Below, piece after piece: positions 30,948 to 49,141 of a stretch of 50,967 nucleotides of DNA. Position 1 is the first letter of the stretch, and each line of letters opens with the position of its first letter. Source of the stretch: Parcubacteria group bacterium (lineage in GTDB: Bacteria > Patescibacteriota > Minisyncoccia > Portnoybacterales > UBA2143). The stretch covers positions 1-50,967 of the forward strand of contig NYYU01000041.1 in the NCBI GenBank assembly GCA_002685955.1, read 5' to 3'. Both the position numbers and the translations under genes were made by a program. The notes under the pieces are model-generated. The model was not told where the DNA came from and searched no databases. It saw only the letters and a program-made list of their open reading frames with translations.

Positions 30948-32837
30948 ATGGCAAATAAATTTGAACAACCAAATCAAGAAACAAAAGAAGAACCTTTAAT
31001 TAAGGTTGTTAGTCCTGTAGGGGCTGAAGGGAGGAAAATAAGTGAAAAAACAATAGATAATGCCCAGAGGACAATTGATGAATTAAAATTTGAAAAAGAT
31101 ATAAAGAAAAAACAAAAAGAAGGAGTTTTACTCTCTAAAGAAGAAACAGCTAAATTAAGAGAATTAGAAAAAGAAGCAGAAAAACATGAGGATTTAGAAA
31201 AAAAGAAAGAATTAATTTTAGACGATGTTAGAAAAGAGTATGCTAAAATAGATTTAAACGCAGAAAAATACATTAAAGAAAATAAAGGAAAACTTAAGAA
31301 TGACTTTGAAGGCTATGAAGAAGCGAAATCAGCTTATTTAGAAGCATTGAAAAATCAACGGGTGAAAATGTATGAAAAAGCACTTAAAGAAGTGAAAGGA
31401 TTATCTCTTCCAGAATCAAAGAAAGAAGAAAAAAATAAAAAAATGAAAGAAAAAATGGAAGAGATTGTTAAAGAGACGATTATCAAAGAAGCCAATAAAT
31501 TGTATGATCAAAAAATGGATTTGAAATTAGAAGCTAAGGGAGAATTAGGAAAATTAGAAAAAATAAAGAATTTTACTGGCAAGATAGTTGAAAAATATAG
31601 GAGAATGCCTTTATATAAAAAGCTTTTAATTTCTGGTGGGTTAATAGCTGGCGGAATAGCAGCTGGCGCTGCTGGAGGAGCTACTGCAGCTGCTTTAGCT
31701 ACTGGGATGGTAACTGGTAGGTGGGCTCAAAGAGCTTTAGGTGGTGCAGCTACAGCAGTTGGCTTAGAAGCGTTAATTAAAAGGAGTCAAGAGAAAAAAG
31801 AAGGTAAAGAAGTATTAGCTGAGTTGGCCAATGAGTTACAAAAAAGCATTAAAGATAATGATAAAAAATTAGATAAAAAATTATTTGAATTAGAAGGAAG
31901 TAAGAAAGGACAAAAAACCCGACGATATATTATAGCTGGCGCAGCAGGAACATTAGTTGGTTCTGGCTTAGTTGGTAAAGCATTAAACGGTGTAGTTGGA
32001 GGTATTTGGGGTGGTGAAGGAGCAGAAAAAGTAACTGAAAAAGTAGTTGAACAAGTGCAAACAGAAGGATTTACTGAAACAGCTGGAAAAGGTGATTCAG
32101 TATGGAAAATGGCAGAAGATCAATTAGAAAAATATTATGGAGGAAAGTTTTCTGGATTAGATAAAGCCACTCAAACTCATCTTATTGACGCAGTCAAAGA
32201 TAAAGTTGCTGAAAATTCTGAAAAATTTGGTTTAGAAGATGTTGATAAATTAAAAGTTGGTCAGAAAGTTGATTTTTCAAGTATTTTTGAAGATTCAGCG
32301 CAAATGGATGAAATGTCGAAAGAAGCAAGCAGTTTAGTAGATAGCGAAAAAACAAATATTTTAAATAATAATAATAAGATTGAAGAATGGATGAGTGAAC
32401 ATCCTAAAGAAGAATTAACTTCTGAAAAAGTTGATGAGATTTTATCAGGAAAAACAGAAATTTCAGATACAGAAGTTGACGTAGCTGCAGAAGAAAGAAT
32501 TGCTTCTGAAATGAGCAACCAAGCAAATATTGAAATACAAATAGATGAAGCTGAAAATAAATTAGTTGAATCACTTGGATTTACTCCAGATGAATATAGT
32601 GCTATTGAATCTGTAAAAGTAGATTATTTATTAGAGCAATTACCTTCAAAATTTGAGGCATGGGAAATGTGGCATAATACGCCAACAAATATAGATTTGC
32701 CTCATGATGGAATTTATGGTTTTGGCGAATTTGGCCGACATATTGAATTAGCAGAATATATTCGTTCTCTTAATCCTAATGAAGGCGCAAAACAAATGAC
32801 AATTAGTCAATTTATGAGAGTTGCAGCTAGTAAATAA
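30948..32837 (+). CDS. Coiled-coil membrane protein with LysM-like domain, lineage-specific
   Basis: 629 residues. The first ~210 are charged coiled coil (KQKEGVLLSKEETAKLRELE and similar). Two Gly/Ala-rich membrane segments follow: ISGGLIAGGIAAGAAGGATA (about 226-250, a glycine-zipper look) and YIIAGAAGTLVGSGLVGKAL (about 328-350). After these GKGDSVWKMAEDQLEKYYGG to DKLKVGQKVDFS resembles a LysM-like peptidoglycan-binding module. The C-terminus is acidic and ends with a well-ordered segment (WHNTPTNIDLPHDGIYGFGE). First gene of a plus-strand operon with the TraG-like ATPase. An envelope-spanning or scaffold role is inference. Confidence 0.7.
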   Translation: MANKFEQPNQETKEEPLIKVVSPVGAEGRKISEKTIDNAQRTIDELKFEKDIKKKQKEGVLLSKEETAKLRELEKEAEKHEDLEKKKELILDDVRKEYAKIDLNAEKYIKENKGKLKNDFEGYEEAKSAYLEALKNQRVKMYEKALKEVKGLSLPESKKEEKNKKMKEKMEEIVKETIIKEANKLYDQKMDLKLEAKGELGKLEKIKNFTGKIVEKYRRMPLYKKLLISGGLIAGGIAAGAAGGATAAALATGMVTGRWAQRALGGAATAVGLEALIKRSQEKKEGKEVLAELANELQKSIKDNDKKLDKKLFELEGSKKGQKTRRYIIAGAAGTLVGSGLVGKALNGVVGGIWGGEGAEKVTEKVVEQVQTEGFTETAGKGDSVWKMAEDQLEKYYGGKFSGLDKATQTHLIDAVKDKVAENSEKFGLEDVDKLKVGQKVDFSSIFEDSAQMDEMSKEASSLVDSEKTNILNNNNKIEEWMSEHPKEELTSEKVDEILSGKTEISDTEVDVAAEERIASEMSNQANIEIQIDEAENKLVESLGFTPDEYSAIESVKVDYLLEQLPSKFEAWEMWHNTPTNIDLPHDGIYGFGEFGRHIELAEYIRSLNPNEGAKQMTISQFMRVAASK

Positions 32838-32881
32838 ATAATTTAATATTAATAATTAATAAAAAAATAACTAAAACAATT

Positions 32882-33202
32882 ATGAACAAGAAAAATATTC
32901 AACAAAACATTATTAAAGAACTTGGTTTAGAAGGTTTGCCAGAAGATAAACAAATAGAACTTTTAACTACCATGACTGAGTCAGTTTTAAAAAGAATAAC
33001 TATTAAAGTATTAGAACTATTATCTGAAGAAGATAAAAAAGAATTTGATCAAGTTCGAGAAACAAATGATCCAGATAAAATTAGTGAATTTTTAAAAGAT
33101 AAAATTAATAATTACGATGAAATAGTTGAAGACGTAATTAAAGAATTTAAGGAAGAGATGAAAAGCACAATGGCAAGTTTAGAAGAAGGTTTAGAAAAAT
33201 AA
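32882..33202 (+). CDS. Small helical protein of a Patescibacteria-type family (DUF5663-like)
   Basis: 106 residues, all-helical and acidic. Start NIQQNIIKELGLEGLPEDKQ, then ELLTTMTESVLKRITIKVLE, then LSEEDKKEFDQVRETNDPDK. The pattern [LI]GL..LP.[ED][KR]Q..LL..M...V..R[IV]...VL..LSE.[ED] is one I associate with DUF5663 proteins of candidate phyla, from memory only. Third-party function unknown. Second gene of the operon; spacing of 44 nt to the previous gene and 6 nt to the next. Confidence 0.6.
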   Translation: MNKKNIQQNIIKELGLEGLPEDKQIELLTTMTESVLKRITIKVLELLSEEDKKEFDQVRETNDPDKISEFLKDKINNYDEIVEDVIKEFKEEMKSTMASLEEGLEK

Positions 33203-33208
33203 TTTTTT

Positions 33209-33685
33209 ATGTCTGAAATAAGAGATAAATATCAGGAGCCACTTGAAGGCGATCCATCTGCTTTCAGCGAAAAAGTTGAATTAAAAAAGGAGGATTTTTC
33301 AAAAAAACCTTCTTTGCCAGATGAATCTGTTTCAAAAGAACAGGAAGTTTTAGAATTAGAAAAAAAATTGGCAGAGAAAAAGATGGAGTTAAATAAAGAA
33401 GTTGTGTCTAAAAAAAATGAAGAATCAGAGCCAGAAAAAGAAACTACCCCAAGACCAAATATACCGCCAGGCAAGGTTCAACAACGAGTTAAACAATTAA
33501 AAGATACCAGTAAAGAAAATCAAGTTAAAGCGCTTTGTGATCTAGCCTTTCAAAAGGGCCTTGATTTTGCTGTTGAAACAGCTAAAAATCTAGATAATGC
33601 TTATGTTTTAGATGAATTCCACGATACTCTAGTTGATGAATTGCGTGAAAAGCTAATTCAAAAAGGAGAGTTAAAAAAACTATAA
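33209..33685 (+). CDS. Acidic protein with helical C-terminal domain, unknown
   Basis: 158 residues. Residues 1-95 are low-complexity and charged, likely disordered or coiled coil (EVLELEKKLAEKKMELNKEV). The C-terminal half is compact and helical: KVQQRVKQLKDTSKENQVKA, LCDLAFQKGLDFAVETAKNL, NAYVLDEFHDTLVDELREKL. No family recognised. It ends 4 nt before the ATPase start, and its end carries the ATPase Shine-Dalgarno (AAAAGGAG). It is likely an accessory or adaptor of the ATPase (inference from position). Confidence 0.6.
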   Translation: MSEIRDKYQEPLEGDPSAFSEKVELKKEDFSKKPSLPDESVSKEQEVLELEKKLAEKKMELNKEVVSKKNEESEPEKETTPRPNIPPGKVQQRVKQLKDTSKENQVKALCDLAFQKGLDFAVETAKNLDNAYVLDEFHDTLVDELREKLIQKGELKKL

Positions 33686-33689
33686 TTTC

Positions 33690-36182
33690 GTGAGTATCAA
33701 TCAAATATTTTTATCTACAATTTCTCTCCTGATTCTGTCTATTATCATTATAGGCAGTCTCCTTTTTGTCCATCGCCTTAAAAACAAAGGGCAAACAAGA
33801 CGGGCTTTAAATATGAGCCTGTTTTTAATTACTCTGCCTAAAAAAACTAAAAATCAAGAACAATCGCCCAAGAACGAAAAAGAAATCATTTCAGTTATGG
33901 AACAGGTCTACAGTAGTTTAAGTAATATTCAGGCCAAGGAAAATACCTTTATTTACGGCCAGCCTCATTTAGTTTTTGAAATAGCTACCCCACAAATTGG
34001 TGAAGAAATTGCCTTTTATCTGGCCGTACCTAAAAATTACGAAGAAATTGTTGAAAAACAGATTCATGGGTTTTATCCTGAAGCTTCCATTGAACCAACT
34101 GAAGATTATAATATTTTCAATCCTCAAGGTGGAGTAGCTGGTAGTTATTTAAAATTAACTAAAAGCTATATTCTTCCTTTTAAAACATACCAACATTTAG
34201 AAACTGACCCACTTAACGAAATCACTAATACTTTAAGTAAATTAGAAGAAGATGGCGAAGGAGGAGCAGTTCAAATTATCTTCAGACCTACTAAAGTAAG
34301 GTGGCAAGCCCTAAGCCGAGGAATTGCCCAAGAAATGCAAAAAGGAAAAAGTTTTTCTCAAGCGAAATCAGCCAAAGGCAGTAATGAATTAGTTAAATTA
34401 ATTAAAGGATTTCAAGAAGATGTTAAATCTCCTAAAAAAGAAAAAACAACAGAAGAAGAAAAACCAACTATTACTTCTGGCCAAGAAGAAATTATCAAAG
34501 CCTTAGAAGGAAAATCAGCTAAAAAGGGCTTTGATGTAAATATCAAGTTATTGGTTTCAGCTAAAGACAAAGACAGGGCTGAGGAATTACTAAATCATCT
34601 AGAAGCAGCTTTTGTTCAATTTGAAGCGCCTGATCTAAATCAATTAAAACCAATCAAACTCAAAAATAGATCTTTAAAAAAACTAATCTATAATTTTTCT
34701 TTTCGGCTTTTTAATAAAAAACAAACAATGCTTTTAAATACTGAAGAATTAACTAGCGTTTTTCATTTTCCTACGGCTAGTACTGAAACGCCTAAAGTTA
34801 AATTCCTTAAATCAGAACAAGCGGCTCCACCTGCTAATATGCCTAAGCAAGGTCTCATTTTAGGAAAAAATGATTATCGTGGTGTAGAAACAGTTATTCG
34901 TATGCAAGAAGATGACAGGCGTCGTCATTTATATGTTATTGGACAAACTGGAGTAGGTAAATCTAATTTCTTAAAAAATATAATTCTTCAGGATATTAAA
35001 GAAGGCAAAGGAGTTTGCTTTATAGACCCTCATGGAAGTGATTTAGAATCAGTTATGGGTCAAATACCTAAGGAAAGAGCTGAAGATGTTATTTTAATAG
35101 ATCCAGCTGATATGGAAAGACCTTTAGGTTTAAACATGGTGGATTATAATGCAAAGTATCCAGAACAAAAAACTTTTGTTGTTAATGAATTAATGAGTAT
35201 TTTTGAAAAATTATACGATATGAAAGCATCAGGTGGGCCGGTATTTGAACAATATACCCGTAACGCTCTTTTATTACTAATGGATGATCCAAGCGAGAAA
35301 TTTACATTAATGGAAGTTCCTAAAGTTATGTCTGATAAAGAATTTCGTACTCGTTTGTTAGTAAAATGTAAGAATATAGTGGTTAAGGATTTTTGGGAAA
35401 AAGAAGCAGAAAAAACAGGTGGTGAATCTTCTTTACAAAATATGGTTCCATATATTACCTCTAAATTTAATGTATTTATTGCTAATGACTATATGAGACC
35501 AATAATAGGGCAATCAGAAAGTTCTATTGATTTTAGACAACTTATGGATGAACAAAAGATTCTTTTGGTTAATTTAAGTAAAGGCCGATTGGGAGATATT
35601 AATAGTCATTTATTAGGTTTAATTATTGTAGGTAAGTTATTAATGGCTGCTTTTTCAAGAGTTGATATTCCTGAGGAAGAGCGCAAGGATTTTTATCTAT
35701 ATATGGATGAGTTTCAAAACTTTTCAACTGATAGTATTGCTACAATTCTTTCTGAAGCAAGGAAGTATAAGCTTTGTTTAACTATGGCGCATCAATTTAT
35801 TGGACAATTGCCTGAAGAAATTAGTAAAGCTGTTTTTGGCAATGTTGGCTCAATGGTTGCCTTTAGAATTGGCGCTGAAGATGCAGAGTTTTTAGTCAAA
35901 CAATTTGAACCAATCTTTGACACTAATGATTTAATTAATATTGATAACTTTAATGCATATGTTAAACTAATGATTAACAACGAAACTTCTGAACCGTTTA
36001 ATCTTTCGGTCTATCCGCCAGCCAAAGATAATCCAGAAATCGCCCAAAAAATCAAAGAGCTTTCCAAAATTAAATATGGCAAGGATAAAAACGTAGTCGA
36101 AAAAGAAATTACTAATCGCTGGCAAGACACAGCTGTCACCGAAAGCCAGCCTCCATCAAACTCAGATATGGAAATTAGATAA
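33690..36182 (+). CDS. TraG/HerA-type (type IV secretion-like) ATPase, membrane-anchored
   Basis: 830 residues, GTG start. One N-terminal membrane helix (about residues 5-27, IFLSTISLLILSIIIIGSLL) precedes a ~340-residue domain. The RecA-like motor has Walker A HLYVIGQTGVGKSNFLKNI, FIDPHGSD, NPxDx-type VILIDPADMERPLGLNM, Walker B FYLYMDEFQNFSTDS and arginine-finger-side block EARKYKLCLTMAHQFIGQLP. This is the DUF87/TraG_D/VirB4-like class that pumps DNA or protein across membranes. No relaxase, VirB or pilin genes accompany it; its neighbours are lineage-specific hypotheticals. So it is either part of an undescribed envelope system or acts in DNA translocation. Confidence 0.85.
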   Translation: MSINQIFLSTISLLILSIIIIGSLLFVHRLKNKGQTRRALNMSLFLITLPKKTKNQEQSPKNEKEIISVMEQVYSSLSNIQAKENTFIYGQPHLVFEIATPQIGEEIAFYLAVPKNYEEIVEKQIHGFYPEASIEPTEDYNIFNPQGGVAGSYLKLTKSYILPFKTYQHLETDPLNEITNTLSKLEEDGEGGAVQIIFRPTKVRWQALSRGIAQEMQKGKSFSQAKSAKGSNELVKLIKGFQEDVKSPKKEKTTEEEKPTITSGQEEIIKALEGKSAKKGFDVNIKLLVSAKDKDRAEELLNHLEAAFVQFEAPDLNQLKPIKLKNRSLKKLIYNFSFRLFNKKQTMLLNTEELTSVFHFPTASTETPKVKFLKSEQAAPPANMPKQGLILGKNDYRGVETVIRMQEDDRRRHLYVIGQTGVGKSNFLKNIILQDIKEGKGVCFIDPHGSDLESVMGQIPKERAEDVILIDPADMERPLGLNMVDYNAKYPEQKTFVVNELMSIFEKLYDMKASGGPVFEQYTRNALLLLMDDPSEKFTLMEVPKVMSDKEFRTRLLVKCKNIVVKDFWEKEAEKTGGESSLQNMVPYITSKFNVFIANDYMRPIIGQSESSIDFRQLMDEQKILLVNLSKGRLGDINSHLLGLIIVGKLLMAAFSRVDIPEEERKDFYLYMDEFQNFSTDSIATILSEARKYKLCLTMAHQFIGQLPEEISKAVFGNVGSMVAFRIGAEDAEFLVKQFEPIFDTNDLINIDNFNAYVKLMINNETSEPFNLSVYPPAKDNPEIAQKIKELSKIKYGKDKNVVEKEITNRWQDTAVTESQPPSNSDMEIR

Positions 36183-36205: not shown

Positions 36206-36799
36206 ATGAATAAATTAGAAATGGGTATTGAAAATATTCCTCAGGAATTAAATCAGGATAATTCTGAAAAACCAAACATTGAACAAGAGACAGAATCTGA
36301 TTTGGATGGAATGGCCGATCAAGAAAAAAGTATCTTAGAAAAATTTAGAGGCAAGGCTAAAAAAGTAGCTCTTGTTATGACTGTGGCCACCTCTCTGGCT
36401 GTTATAGGCTGCAAAGCGGAAAAAGCCCAAGACAATGTTTCTGGAAAAAATCAAGAGAGCGCGACGCATGAAGTCCAGGAATTAACCGAAGGAGAAAAAA
36501 ATGCGTTGGATCTAGTCAATGGGCTGAAACAAATACCCGAAAAATTACAAGAAGCTATAAAACAAGGAAAAGTAGAATCAGTTGGTCCTGCCCAAGATAA
36601 TGCTAGAGAGAGACAAGCCACTATGGATAGCATCCAAGCTTACTTTGACTCAGCAAAGAATAAAAGGGCTGCAATTGAAAACCTGGAATCAGCCTTGGGA
36701 AGCTTAGGTTTAGGCTCGCTTGATAAAGATGTTCAAAGAGGCTTGCTTAAAAAATTCGTTAATTACAAAAAAGCGCTTGACCGAACGGAAAAAAAATAA
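36206..36799 (+). CDS. Membrane-anchored protein, cassette gene A (copy 1)
   Basis: 197 residues. An acidic N-terminal tail (about 50 residues) ends with QEKSILEKFRGKAKKVALVM and one hydrophobic segment with a lipobox-like end, SLAVIGCKAEK. The rest should be outside the membrane and is helical (TEGEKNALDLVNGLKQIPEK ...). The tail-plus-helix module is shared with the protein at 37425-38045 (QEKGFIEGLRGKSKLVAKTM), while the outer parts differ. The gene is followed after 10 nt by cassette gene B. Function unknown; the layout of common anchor and variable outer part is notable. Confidence 0.65.
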   Translation: MNKLEMGIENIPQELNQDNSEKPNIEQETESDLDGMADQEKSILEKFRGKAKKVALVMTVATSLAVIGCKAEKAQDNVSGKNQESATHEVQELTEGEKNALDLVNGLKQIPEKLQEAIKQGKVESVGPAQDNARERQATMDSIQAYFDSAKNKRAAIENLESALGSLGLGSLDKDVQRGLLKKFVNYKKALDRTEKK

Positions 36800-36809
36800 A
36801 TTAATTAAT

Positions 36810-37076
36810 ATGAATAGTCTTGAAAAACTTAAACAAATATTAGAAGGTTCAAAGCTGTCGAGCCGAGACCAAAAAGCGCTTGTTGATCTTTTCTCGTCAG
36901 CAAAAGACGAAGAGCTGGAACCTGTGATTAAATTATTTTCTGAAAATCCGGAATGGATTGAAAAAATCAGCCATAACCACAAAATAAAACAAGAAGCATT
37001 GAAAAAGAGTGATGCAAATTTATGGCAGAAAATTATTCAAGAAGAAGAATCTCAACTCAGAGAATTAGAAAAATAA
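36810..37076 (+). CDS. Small helical protein, cassette gene B (copy 1)
   Basis: 88 residues from ATG 36810 (MNSLEKLKQILEGSKLSSRD); the track start is 90 nt upstream inside gene A and less likely. Further blocks are QKALVDLFSSAKDEELEPVI, KLFSENPEWIEKISHNHKIK and a terminal helix IIQEEESQLRELEK. It aligns along its whole length with the minus-strand 37148-37420 product. No known family. It ends 24 nt before the palindromic terminator shared with the convergent copy. Confidence 0.65.
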   Translation: MNSLEKLKQILEGSKLSSRDQKALVDLFSSAKDEELEPVIKLFSENPEWIEKISHNHKIKQEALKKSDANLWQKIIQEEESQLRELEK

Positions 37077-37100
37077 CCCAAAACCAATGGCATAATTAAA

Positions 37101-37151
37101 ACCGTCTGCCTGAGGCAGACGGTCTTGTCTTTATTAATCCCTAAAAATCAG
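37101..37151. repeat. 51-bp direct repeat, copy 1, with bidirectional terminator
   Basis: ACCGTCTGCC-TGA-GGCAGACGGT (37101-37123) is a perfect 10-bp hairpin with T-rich flanks on both sides, between two convergent genes. The adjoining TTGTCTTTATTAATCCCTAA and onward to TCAG is repeated at 38903-38932. The last bases include the stop codon of the minus-strand gene B. Confidence 0.85.
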
Positions 37152-37420
37152 ATAGATTTATCAATTTCATCTAAAAATTCTTTTTCTTCTTTTAATATCT
37201 CGCTAAAATCAGCCTGTTTATTCCCCATAAAAATATTTTGTTTTTTCTTATAATTATTATAAACCCATGTTACCCATTTTTTATCTTCTTTGAACAATTC
37301 AAGAATTATAGAAAGATTATTCATAGGAGAATATCCAATAATATTATAAAGCTCATCCTGTTCTTGTTGTTTAAGATTAGATGATGATATTAATTTCCTT
37401 ATTTGTAATAATGTCTCCAT
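37148..37420 (-). CDS. Small helical protein, cassette gene B (copy 2)
   Basis: 90 residues: METLLQIRKLISSSNLKQQE, QDELYNIIGYSPMNNLSIIL, ELFKEDKKWVTWVYNNYKKK, ending LKEEKEFLDEIDKSI. Aligns with the 36810 product (SKLSSRDQKAL/SNLKQQEQDEL, FSENPEWIEKISHNHKIKQ/FKEDKKWVTWVYNNYKKKQ, IIQEEESQLRELEK/ILKEEKEFLDEIDK). The two are old paralogs. It starts 4 nt after its gene A partner, as in copy 1. Confidence 0.65.
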   Translation of the reverse strand: METLLQIRKLISSSNLKQQEQDELYNIIGYSPMNNLSIILELFKEDKKWVTWVYNNYKKKQNIFMGNKQADFSEILKEEKEFLDEIDKSI

Positions 37421-37424
37421 GATA

Positions 37425-38045
37425 TTAAAAATCTGACGGTTTCATATATTCGTTCCCTTTTGTTATGGTCACTGAAGGATCTTGCTTTTTATTTTTATCC
37501 TCTATCTCATCATCTTCCACGCTATCTACAGGCGATCTTTTAATTTTACGCGCTTTTTCAACGCTTTCTCTCTCATCATCAGTTAATAAATCTAAAGGCA
37601 CATTATGTTCATTAATATGAGTTGGCACGAATCCTTCTAATTTAATTGAAGGATTATTGGAATCAAAATCAATTCCCATTTTTCCAGCAAGCTCTGATGC
37701 CCTTTTAATCCATCTTTCTCTTTCTTCTTGCTTTTGTTTCTTTTTCTTTAACACTTGTTCTATTCGCCTTTGCATACGCTCATCACCAGAATATTTATTC
37801 TGGTCAGCACCTTTTTGCTTCTCACTTATGGTATGTCTTTTTATCTCATCACCTGCTTCTGCTTTAGATAAACTAACAGTACCAGCAAGTAAAGTGCACA
37901 AGACCATTGTTTTAGCTACTAATTTTGACTTACCGCGCAATCCCTCTATAAATCCTTTTTCTTGAATTGCAAGCTTATCCAAATCAATATGTGGTTCTTT
38001 CTCGTTAGTATTATTAATATTTTCTGGAAACTTTTCTAAATTCAT
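37425..38045 (-). CDS. Membrane-anchored protein, cassette gene A (copy 2)
   Basis: 206 residues. Short acidic tail, then IDLDKLAIQEKGFIEGLRGK, the hydrophobic segment VAKTMVLCTLLAGTVSLSKA and a charged outer part with KKKKQKQEERERWIKRASEL. The first 70 residues match the anchor of the 36206 product; the rest does not. The segment ends SLSKAEAGDE, so signal peptidase cleavage after AEA is possible. It has a clean promoter with leaderless spacing and forms a unit with gene B at 37148. Confidence 0.65.
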   Translation of the reverse strand: MNLEKFPENINNTNEKEPHIDLDKLAIQEKGFIEGLRGKSKLVAKTMVLCTLLAGTVSLSKAEAGDEIKRHTISEKQKGADQNKYSGDERMQRRIEQVLKKKKQKQEERERWIKRASELAGKMGIDFDSNNPSIKLEGFVPTHINEHNVPLDLLTDDERESVEKARKIKRSPVDSVEDDEIEDKNKKQDPSVTITKGNEYMKPSDF

Positions 38046-38053
38046 ATAGTTCT

Positions 38054-38081
38054 ATTATATCATTTATGTTATTTTTATCAA
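38054..38081 (-). promoter_or_regulatory. Promoter of cassette copy 2, leaderless spacing
   Basis: Minus strand TTGATA (38076-38081), 16 nt, TATAAT (38054-38059), then 8 nt to the ATG at 38045. No Shine-Dalgarno. Confidence 0.65.
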
Positions 38082-45318: not shown

Positions 45319-45986
45319 TCAAAAAATCTTTACCAACAAACGCTTATTTATAACTTTCTTTAGATCTATATTCCTTTTCGTAAAATACTCCTTAATCGCT
45401 CCACTTATCAAATCTGACATTTGCATCGCATTAACATATTCCGAGTTTACATGTGTAACATGTTTGATTCTTTGTATTGTTTTTGTGTTCACTCTTTTTT
45501 TTAAATAATTATCACAGTTCTCAAAATTGCCGTCCAATAATCTCCTATCCGCCCTATCAATCACAACTTCCACATCAAGAAAATTTGATTTCCTTACTGC
45601 CAAATTAACAAGTTTTACCAAATTATATTCATCAAAAACATTATGGTTTTTTCTACCAGGCGCCGCAAATTTCCCTTTATACTTTTTCTTATCAATGAGA
45701 CGATAATAAACTTGATATCAAGTTTATTAATAATATTTAGGAGCGCTTTGTATAAACTCAAAGAAACATCAGTACTTTTAATTTCTTTTTTATAGCCAAA
45801 TTTGTTTTTTATTTCCATTACCATGTTTTCTAACAAAAACAACTGGCGAGAATTAATACAAACAGCAGAAAGTATGTAATATAAGCTCGCGCCCGTTGCA
45901 ACCCTTTTTCCGCCAGAATTAATTTTAAATAGTTTTCCTGGATCGCCTGATTCATCAACAAAAATATAATTATAAGATTTATTCAT
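45319..45986 (-). pseudogene. DUF3800 family gene with one frameshift
   Basis: Two minus-strand frames (45986-45615 and 45621-45319) make one DUF3800 protein. The first has YNYIFVDESGDPGKLFKINS (the DESGD motif of this RNase H-like family) and runs in frame to about 45695. From there the second frame continues KKKYKGKFAAPGRKNHNVFD and onward to VEVVIDRADRRLLDGNFENC, with VNAMQMSDLISGAIKEYF (the conserved 'QxADLxxG' end). The homologous text crosses between frames around GTCTCATTGATAAG; one extra base there would restore it. A read error is possible. The family often accompanies mobile and defence genes. Confidence 0.75.
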
Positions 45987-46144: not shown

Positions 46145-49141
46145 ATGCCTTTAGTTAACCCCAAAGTTAAAACTAAAAAACTTGAAGAAAAGTTAACCTT
46201 AATCAAACGCCAAGAAGAAGAAACGTCTGCTAAGCGATTAGCTCAAGAGCTTGATTTGCCCTATATTAATTTAGCTATGACCGCGATTGACTCTGATAGC
46301 CTGGCCATCTTGCCCAAAGAAACTGCTCAAAAAGGAGAAGCATTAATCATTAGAAAATATGGCAAAATATTACGTTTAGCCGTCAGGAATCCTGACAATC
46401 CTCAGACAGTTGAAATTATTGAACAACTCGAGCGTCAAGGTTTTGAATGCAAATTCTTTATTGTCTCTTTAACAAGTTTAGAAATAGGTTGGCAGCGCTA
46501 CGAATTAACCGCCCCTAAATCTAGCTCGATTAGGGGCATTTTAACTATTCAGAAAGAAGAATTAGAAGAATTTGAAAAATCTCTTAAAACCATTCAAGAT
46601 CTTAAAAAGACCATTAGCAATTTATCAACTACCGGTCTTCTTTCTATTATTGTAGCCGGAGCAATTAAAATGAAGGCTTCGGATATTCATTTTGAACCGG
46701 GCAAAAAAGGCATTAAAATGCGCTACCGAATTGATGGATTACTTCAAGAGATAACTATTTTCCCAACAAAATCATATCGTTTCCTGCTTTCCAGGGTTAA
46801 AACCCTGTCAGACATGATTATTAATGTTCATGATATTAGTCAAGATGGCCGTTTTACTATTAGAATTTTAGGCGATAAAAAATCTCAGGATATTGACATG
46901 AGGGTTTCAGTTCTGCCTACGGGCTATGGAGAAAGTATTGTGATACGTCTTTTAGGATTGGGCATAGTTGAATTAAATCTGCCTGACTTAGGCATTAGAC
47001 CCGAATTATTTGAACTGGCTAAAATGCAAATCACCCGGCCCAATGGCATGGTTTTAACCACCGGACCAACCGGCTCAGGTAAAACCACTACTCTCTATGC
47101 TTGTTTAGAATATGTTAATAAACCGGAGAATAAAATTATTACAGTTGAAGATCCAATTGAGTATAGATTAAAAGGAATTACTCAAACCCAAATTAACAAA
47201 CGCAAAGGACAAACCTTTGCCAAGGTTTTAAAAACAGTTGTTCGTCAAGATCCTGATACTTTAATGGTCGGCGAAATTAGAGACAAAGAAAGCGCTGATA
47301 TCGCCGTTCATTCTGCCTTAACCGGCCATATAGTTTTCTCTACTCTTCACGCCAATGACGCGGCTAGTGCCGTACCGCGTTTAATCGACATTGGGGTTAA
47401 GCCGGCTTTTATTCCTCAAACGCTTAATTTAGTTATTGCTCAAAGATTAGTTAGAAGGCTTTGTCCCTATTGCAAAAAACCCTATAATCCTTCTGATCAG
47501 ATGATCAAAGATACTAAAAAGATTTTTTCTTTGATCTCGCCTAAAACAGGTATTGATATTCCTAGAAAAATATCTACTTTTTACAAACCTCAGGGATGTC
47601 CTAAGTGCCATGGCTTAGGCTATCAGGGCCGAATTGGTATTTTTGAATTTTTTACTGTTAGTCAGGCAATTGAAAAGATGATTCTTGAAAAAGGCACTTC
47701 ATTTGAACTCCGGGCTAAAGCGATGCAACAAGGCATGATGACTCTCATGCAGGACGCCATGTTAAGAATAGTTGAAGGAACCACTTCTATGGAAGAATTA
47801 CAAAGAGTCATTGGCTCTCCTCAATACATTGAACAACTTTACGGCCAATCAATTATGTCCATGCTTACTCGAGCCTTGATCATAACTGATAGAATGATTA
47901 CCTGGGCTAAATCTATAGTGCTGGGTGACAAGAAAACCCAGAAAAAACTTGATAAAGTTAAAATGGAAGATTTGGTTGAATGGCTTGCTGTAGCCGCCCT
48001 GCATATGAAAGCAACTGATATTCATTTAGAAGCAGAAGAAAATATTTTCAAAATTAGATTAAGGATAGATAGCGCCCTTGAAGAAATAGCTCAAATTCCT
48101 AAAGAATTATTCTTGTCCGTTGTGGCCAAGATTAAAGAATTAGCTGGTATGGATATTGAAGTCCATCAAAGAACCCAAGATGGTCGCTTTAAGATAGATT
48201 ATCCTGATGGGAAATCATATGATACGCGAATATCGGTTATCCCTAGCGGCTATGGCGAATCGGTCATTATCCGATTGCTCCGGTCAGATATTGGAATATT
48301 AACTTTAGAAGAATTAGGTTTGCGAAAAGAATCATTAAAAATTATCCAAAAAGCGATTAAATCGCCTAATGGCATTATTTTTGTTACGGGGCCGACCAGC
48401 GCTGGAAAAACAACCACTCTTTACTCAATCCTTAACCAACTTAATCGCCCTGAAGTTAAAATCTTTACGATTGAAGATCCGATTGAATACCGTCTTAAAG
48501 GAATCATCCAGACTCAGATAAACAAAGAAGAAGGCTATACCTTTCTTGAAGCTCTTAGAGCCCTGCTCCGACAGAATCCTAACATTATCATGCTCGGTGA
48601 AGTTAGAGACGCAGAAACCGCTCAAGCAGCTATTCAGGCATCTTTAACCGGCCACTTGGTTTTAACCACCCTTCACACTAATAGCGCCGTAGAAGCAATC
48701 CAAAGATTAAATACTTTGGGCATTAAGGCCGATGATATTAGTTCTTCTTTACGGGCAATTGTTGCCCAAAGATTAGTCAGAAAACTCTGTCAAAAATGTA
48801 AAAAAGAAATAAAAATACCTGCAGAAACTCTAGCTCAAATCAAAAAAGAACTTAAAAAAATCCCTGCTTCTTATAAACAAGGAATTAAACAAATTAAACT
48901 TTATCAACCAGGTAAGTGCAAAGAATGTAATCAAAGAGGATATCAAGGTCAAATGGCTATCTTTGAGATTCTAACAGCTGATGACGAGATAAAACAAAAA
49001 ATTCGAGATTCAATTAACCCAACTGAACTAGAAAAATTAGCTAAAGAAAAAGGAATGGTTGCTCTATACCAAGATGGCTTGCTTAACGCTTTAAAGGGTA
49101 TAACCAGCCTAGATGAAGTAGAAAGAGTAACTACTGGTTGA
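46145..49141 (+). CDS. PilB/GspE-type pilus assembly ATPase with two fused ATPase modules
   Basis: 998 residues, almost twice the usual 560-600. Order: MshEN-type N-domain (about 20-115), first ATPase (about 155-560), linker, second ATPase (about 605-990). Module 1: SDIHFEPGKKGIKMRYRIDG, Walker A TTGPTGSGKTTTLYA, Asp box VEDPIEYRLKG, Walker B-type LMVGEIRDKESADIA, zinc CPYC...CPKC. Module 2: TDIHLEAEENIFKIRLRIDS, VTGPTSAGKTTTLYS, IEDPIEYRLKG, IMLGEVRDAETAQAA, zinc CQKC...CKEC. Both sets of catalytic motifs are intact. Only module 1 has the N-domain. It powers type IV pilus extension or DNA uptake at the inner membrane; no pilin or PilC gene is in the window. Confidence 0.93.
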   Translation: MPLVNPKVKTKKLEEKLTLIKRQEEETSAKRLAQELDLPYINLAMTAIDSDSLAILPKETAQKGEALIIRKYGKILRLAVRNPDNPQTVEIIEQLERQGFECKFFIVSLTSLEIGWQRYELTAPKSSSIRGILTIQKEELEEFEKSLKTIQDLKKTISNLSTTGLLSIIVAGAIKMKASDIHFEPGKKGIKMRYRIDGLLQEITIFPTKSYRFLLSRVKTLSDMIINVHDISQDGRFTIRILGDKKSQDIDMRVSVLPTGYGESIVIRLLGLGIVELNLPDLGIRPELFELAKMQITRPNGMVLTTGPTGSGKTTTLYACLEYVNKPENKIITVEDPIEYRLKGITQTQINKRKGQTFAKVLKTVVRQDPDTLMVGEIRDKESADIAVHSALTGHIVFSTLHANDAASAVPRLIDIGVKPAFIPQTLNLVIAQRLVRRLCPYCKKPYNPSDQMIKDTKKIFSLISPKTGIDIPRKISTFYKPQGCPKCHGLGYQGRIGIFEFFTVSQAIEKMILEKGTSFELRAKAMQQGMMTLMQDAMLRIVEGTTSMEELQRVIGSPQYIEQLYGQSIMSMLTRALIITDRMITWAKSIVLGDKKTQKKLDKVKMEDLVEWLAVAALHMKATDIHLEAEENIFKIRLRIDSALEEIAQIPKELFLSVVAKIKELAGMDIEVHQRTQDGRFKIDYPDGKSYDTRISVIPSGYGESVIIRLLRSDIGILTLEELGLRKESLKIIQKAIKSPNGIIFVTGPTSAGKTTTLYSILNQLNRPEVKIFTIEDPIEYRLKGIIQTQINKEEGYTFLEALRALLRQNPNIIMLGEVRDAETAQAAIQASLTGHLVLTTLHTNSAVEAIQRLNTLGIKADDISSSLRAIVAQRLVRKLCQKCKKEIKIPAETLAQIKKELKKIPASYKQGIKQIKLYQPGKCKECNQRGYQGQMAIFEILTADDEIKQKIRDSINPTELEKLAKEKGMVALYQDGLLNALKGITSLDEVERVTTG

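Follow-up and report, generated by a model that had tools for sequence, protein, structure and literature searches.

LXG toxins, the substrates of type VII secretion b, join a constant N-terminal targeting module to a variable C-terminal part, and adjacent genes encode small helical Lap/WXG100-like partners that bind the constant module. We analyzed a gene pair of Patescibacteria, here called A and B, in which a constant N-terminal module (N-module) and a variable C-terminal part (C-part) of A likewise stand beside the gene for a small helical partner, B. Unlike in the LXG systems, the A module ends in a predicted Sec signal peptide and A carries no toxin domains, and no LXG, WXG100 or T7SS model of Pfam was matched by 45 A proteins or by 13 B proteins, B1 and B2 of the present locus included. 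The class I chaperone-effector pairs of type III secretion are similar in that a small cytosolic partner, expected to bind the N-terminus, is encoded beside the secreted protein; B, however, is predicted to be all-helical, and export of A would be by Sec. Searches of B against type III and SecB-type chaperone families gave no match, two members touching FlgN with a best E of 0.067. ESPR autotransporters carry a long N-terminal extension ahead of a cleavable Sec signal peptide (PMC2805444), as A appears to do, but A differs from them in having a dedicated adjacent partner gene, and neither the ESPR model nor an autotransporter barrel was matched by the 45 A proteins in Pfam.

Two further comparisons come from Patescibacteria themselves. 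Passages of PMC12102498, on type IV secretion systems (T4SS) in this group, place VirD4 homologues mostly far from virB4, and term searches of that paper brought up no passage on a gene pair of the present kind. The A-B pair shares neighbor genes with T4SS/VirD4 coupling-protein loci in three genomes (that of the window, G357 and G178), whereas in most loci the two are unlinked. DUF5663 (PF18908), encoded 3.5 kb upstream of the pair in the window, is likewise a short helical protein beside a tail-bearing membrane protein in Patescibacteria; B gave a weak profile match to it, but the profile-to-profile comparison showed no homology (hhalign probability 9%), and kinship was rejected. The A-B family seems not to have been described in the papers and libraries that we searched.

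Two converging gene pairs in the window

The window, by which we mean the whole analyzed stretch of 50,967 nucleotides from a Parcubacteria group bacterium, contains two such pairs, A1-B1 on the plus strand and A2-B2 on the minus strand. Both are real and converge, as an earlier note on this DNA had described. The features are as follows:

30948..33685 (+): genes upstream of the ATPase in its operon, for a 629-aa membrane protein, a DUF5663 protein and a 158-aa protein
33690-36182 (+): VirD4/TraG-like ATPase, 830 aa
36206-36799 (+): A1, predicted exported protein, 197 aa
36314..36412 (+): conserved module of A1 (residues 37-69: ADQEKSILEKFRGKAKKVALVMTVATSLAVIGC), homologous to other A modules
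36810-37076 (+): B1, predicted five-helix protein, 88 aa, from the ATG at 36810
37101-37123 (+): terminator-like inverted repeat with a T-rich flank, lying between B1 and B2, which converge on it
37148-37420 (-): B2, diverged B-family member, 90 aa, 24% identical to B1
37425-38045 (-): A2, predicted exported protein, 206 aa
37854..37970 (-): conserved module of A2 (residues 26-64: AIQEKGFIEGLRGKSKLVAKTMVLCTLLAGTVSLSKAEA), homologous to the A1 module
38054..38081 (-): extended -10 promoter-like site, TTGATA-16-TATAAT, just upstream of A2; match to consensus only

The genes are tightly packed, with 10 nt between A1 and B1, 4 nt between A2 and B2, and 23 nt between the end of the ATPase gene and the start of A1, and A1-B1 are probably co-transcribed with the ATPase operon. 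A longer, TTG-start ORF for B1 begins at 36720 and overlaps A1. We rate the inverted repeat (10 pairs, 7 of them G-C) a good terminator candidate; one such repeat was found, and shuffles predict 1.0. The promoter-like site agrees with the consensus at 11 of 12 positions, with 9 such sites found versus 9.8 expected. The four-gene operon at 30948-36182 (+), encoding a tail-bearing membrane protein, DUF5663, a protein of ~150 aa and the VirD4-like ATPase, recurs in many relatives, where other genes follow it, such as a GtrA-like gene or dnaX. Elsewhere in the window, a 998-aa ORF (46145-49141, +) contains two tandem PilB/GspE-type (T2SSE) ATPase modules and an N-terminal MshEN domain. Two overlapping ORFs at 45319-45986 (-) resemble one interrupted gene that starts with MNKSYNYIFVDESGDPG, has no Pfam match at 1e-4 and is presumably DUF3800-like.

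The earlier note had taken the two pairs for a diverged duplicate, and their homology is clear. In the window's own genome (a 919-kb draft, 84% complete), a search with A1 retrieved A2 (E = 1.2e-6, residues 6-79) and, apart from the query, nothing else; the two N-modules match at E = 4.3e-9 in phmmer, and B1 and B2 align throughout, as claimed, with 23-24% identity over their full length (E = 7e-6 in the own-genome search). A fresh local duplication looks less likely. The A1 module is also homologous to the modules of loci L063, L093 and L132, and B1 is 43-47% identical to the B proteins of L062/L093, L063 and L064/L098 but only 24% identical to B2. Consistently, the B tree places B1 inside a starred four-row set (98/91) and B2 outside it, although an AU test did not formally reject B1 and B2 as sisters (p = 0.34). 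Because B1 is nearer to the B proteins of other families than to B2, the window pairs look like two old lineages that were probably brought together tail to tail, rather than like a recent local duplicate. Upon searching with a three-row B alignment, we found named relatives of B1 in Parcubacteria and Giovannonibacteria (three named loci) and no matching viral contigs. Phage and plasmid records likewise contained no match to B, so that nothing points to a cassette of phage or plasmid origin.

Distribution and gene order of the A-B pair

A profile search for the B family in Patescibacteria, as the earlier note had proposed, gave matches in 45 of 384 class genomes (E <= 1e-3) and, for a draw from the phylum, in 49 of 380 (E <= 0.01), the tail of the latter including weak or other-subfamily matches. 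At 60 places we took the surrounding sequence, up to 20 kb each, and, after excluding seven loci of other subfamilies (the GreA-side family, DUF5663 and others), kept ~56 B loci. The A-B unit is widespread but patchy in Patescibacteria and was previously unnamed. The GreA-side proteins (family f140) are B-like, 125-145 aa long and marked by the motif SMNDEERQYWVNILPIMTPEQ; they adjoin greA in L040, L041, L046 and L047 and apparently form a separate subfamily.

A same-strand A-type gene lies directly beside B, within ~70 nt, in 45 of the 56 loci, the remaining 11 B genes having no adjacent A. As to whether B always follows A, a check proposed in the earlier note, adjacency prevails but the order is not fixed: 21 of the paired loci read A-B and 24 read B-A. 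At least six changes of gene order fall on the B tree, indicating that the adjacency of the two genes was kept while their order was not. B-A pairs stand directly after trmD in four loci (L099, L108, L113 and L114) and directly after rpsI in two (L121 and L125).

As a loose rule for an A-like neighbor is satisfied by 28% of control genes, the case for pairing rests on a strict rule and on sequence homology. The strict rule asks for a tail of at least 30 residues whose far part is acidic, for basic last 15 residues, and for a single core with AxA or a lipobox. It held beside 30 of 56 B genes versus 5 of 950 controls (Fisher p = 6e-37); among those five is a true A that shares its contig with an "orphan" B. 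In a later search, the strongest new B match (G044, L199) had an A 6 nt downstream with a tail, a basic stretch and an AWA site, and no clear A was seen beside three much weaker matches (L201-L203). A search with the A module alone, which has low sensitivity, yielded strong matches only in B-bearing genomes and no convincing A without B. The A-B pairing is strongly supported. The outcome that the earlier note named as refuting, with B homologs alone in many unrelated contexts and A-A homology lacking statistical support, was not observed: B genes are rarely alone, and the A-A homology is significant.

B is predicted to be a small soluble cytosolic helical protein, given that the confident model of B1 (pLDDT 92) consists of five helices and that a hydrophobic segment is absent in nearly all members. 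Pfam, NCBIfam and PDB families gave no match of B to a named family, and Foldseek of the B model against the PDB returned nothing below E = 0.84. B sequences matched paramyxovirus P and protein A at E of about 1e-4 to 1e-3; with the structural match at that Foldseek E-value and a generic three-helix bundle in common, we treated the likeness as fold convergence and rejected a relationship.

Linkage to type IV secretion genes

In the earlier note, the pairs were suggested as a possible substrate or accessory set of the TraG-like ATPase, with a check of whether B genes always sit near it. A-B lies directly behind a VirD4/TraG-like ATPase gene both in the window and in G357, a genome of another class. 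In G178 the pair comes immediately after an operon of VirB type, and in G628 it stands 2.3 kb downstream of one. The directly adjacent cases exceed the ~0.1 expected by chance in a rough count, and the pairs of the window, G357 and G178 share one ten-row B clade (97/80). All this would fit a pair that serves the Patescibacteria T4SS as substrate or accessory, with A as a surface or VirB7-like component and B as its chaperone. Such a role is nonetheless improbable for the family, as T4SS genes are near only a few of the ~56 loci, most of which follow other genes, such as trmD, rpsI or ftsH. Moreover, 9 of the 34 genomes with B gave no VirD4 match (PF02534). Seven relatives (G002, G005, G007, G014, G016, G017 and G033) have no A-B behind their ATPase gene, although its operon partners are there, namely the 158-aa gene and, in most of them, the one for DUF5663. 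Linkage of A-B to virB4/virD4 is not constant, and the link to the ATPase is local or clade-specific.

The two parts of A and a model for export

The A proteins have a common layout, in which a tail of 30-140 residues, mostly acidic (net charge -2 or lower in most A proteins), is followed by a basic stretch and then by a short hydrophobic core. In A1, an acidic tail (residues 1-47), the basic RGKAKK and a hydrophobic core lead to the lipobox LAVIG/C69 (the slash marks the putative cleavage site) and a variable helical and charged C-part, which makes it a predicted lipoprotein; A2 presents a tail, RGKSK, a hydrophobic core, the SPase I-type site SKAEA/G (residue 64) and a variable charged C-part. 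By motif rules, not SignalP, AxA occurs behind the core in 33 of 45 A proteins versus 38% of shuffles, and a lipobox occupies the same place in four (A1 of the window, the Giovannonibacteria A, L100 and L106), so that the elements of Sec export (basic stretch, core, AxA or lipobox) are present in A by these rules. The module had been described as a membrane anchor; because it ends in AxA or a lipobox, and because SPase I and SPase II sites switch at one place in homologous modules, which is how signal peptides behave, we favor a signal peptide behind a long tail as the interpretation.

An uncleaved A would call for another explanation. A could be a membrane protein whose tail stays inside and whose outer part is a sensor or adhesin; B would then be a cytosolic signalling or scaffold protein bound to that tail, in a relay between inside and outside as in anti-sigma pairs. 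This is the main rival of a model in which B escorts A, and it can point to the conserved character of the tail, to a tail length sufficient for a cytosolic domain and to an outer part that varies as sensors do. We consider it unlikely, however, as short hydrophobic cores followed by AxA or a lipobox point to cleavage, B has no Pfam or NCBIfam match to regulators, and no recurring transcription factor was seen beside the pair.

An all-against-all comparison yielded 26 significant pairs of N-modules, some of them spanning the two gene orders, versus 4 pairs of C-parts (E < 1e-3). Leave-one-out profiles recovered 20 of 45 N-modules (12/24 and 8/21), above nearly all of ~4,800 ORFs, and no C-part. 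The architecture that the earlier note had recognized in the window, in which the N-terminal module of A stays the same, its outer part changes and a small constant partner is encoded beside it, is general and extends to 45 of 56 loci. In Mantel tests, B similarity correlated with that of the N-module (r = 0.22, p = 0.001) more than with that of the C-part (r = 0.12, p = 0.03), a co-variation that is weak and could partly reflect common descent. Because B tracks the N-module more than the C-part, the suggestion that A is an effector and B its immunity protein is disfavored. Although a two-gene pair with a variable A C-part would suit this idea, it appears very improbable: one B family spans loci whose C-parts lack common homology, a toxin domain is absent in the 45 A proteins, and a defence-library search with B found nothing relevant, one member each matching two SIR2 models at E of about 5e-4 to 8e-4.

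The structure model of A1 (pLDDT 44) is uninformative, a Pfam scan of the 45 A proteins returned one weak EF-hand match only, and a match of A1 to the Cbp1 adhesin (E = 7e-5, 22.5 bits versus a cut-off of 90) was set aside as coiled-coil composition. One C-part is common to three genomes (L130:9804-11744, L146:1538-3586 and L199:1-1470(-)), with an invariant GICGNIH, a later His and (L/I)DY(G/N)N, and resembles a transglutaminase-like Cys-His-Asp triad; the two complete proteins of this set end in FLW, and neither has a Pfam match. An aromatic last residue, often in an R-x-Y/W-like ending, is found in 11 of 45 A proteins versus 58 of 746 other ORFs (p = 9e-4). The C-part of the A at L093:4162-4764 (-), from Parcubacteria GW2011_GWD2_38_12, is weakly similar to an LPP20 lipoprotein domain (E = 0.15).

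As a constant partner matches a constant N-module, the simplest model has B bind the tail/signal-peptide module of A and escort A to export. We suggest, with confidence somewhat short of even, that A-B is a two-gene export module of this kind. A would be made with a long, mostly acidic and probably disordered cytosolic tail of ~30-140 residues; a basic stretch would come next, and then a signal peptide of Sec type that can be cleaved. B would bind this module in the cytosol and keep A export-competent or pass it to the translocase, and it would remain inside once A is cut by SPase I, or by SPase II with lipidation as in A1, and is released or lipid-anchored. Were B to recognize nothing but the common N-module, the C-part that is exported could vary freely. 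We infer the physical binding by B, its escort role, the Sec route and the final location of A from these patterns. B might instead bind the leftover tail and signal peptide after cleavage and, as a feedback, regulate A synthesis or Sec load. The anatomy would be identical and B would equally track the N-module; nothing specific speaks against this reading, but it is less parsimonious than escort, and we think it doubtful at best. With B as an escort, A-B may tentatively be viewed as a swappable-passenger family, whose cytosolic leader extensions of 30-140 residues are each read by a co-encoded five-helix partner, unlike plain Sec substrates, which conventionally travel without such an escort.

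Many proteins of Patescibacteria belong to no named family, and little is known about the surface proteins that these epibionts use in dealing with hosts. Since the C-parts of A cannot be found via homology, B is useful as a constant marker of a highly variable, putatively exported neighbor, and allows A proteins to be listed directly across many genomes. Should B prove to be an escort, a minimal-genome lineage would have a dedicated partner for Sec export, and a swappable-passenger export module, if true, would provide a handle on surface decoration by Patescibacteria epibionts.
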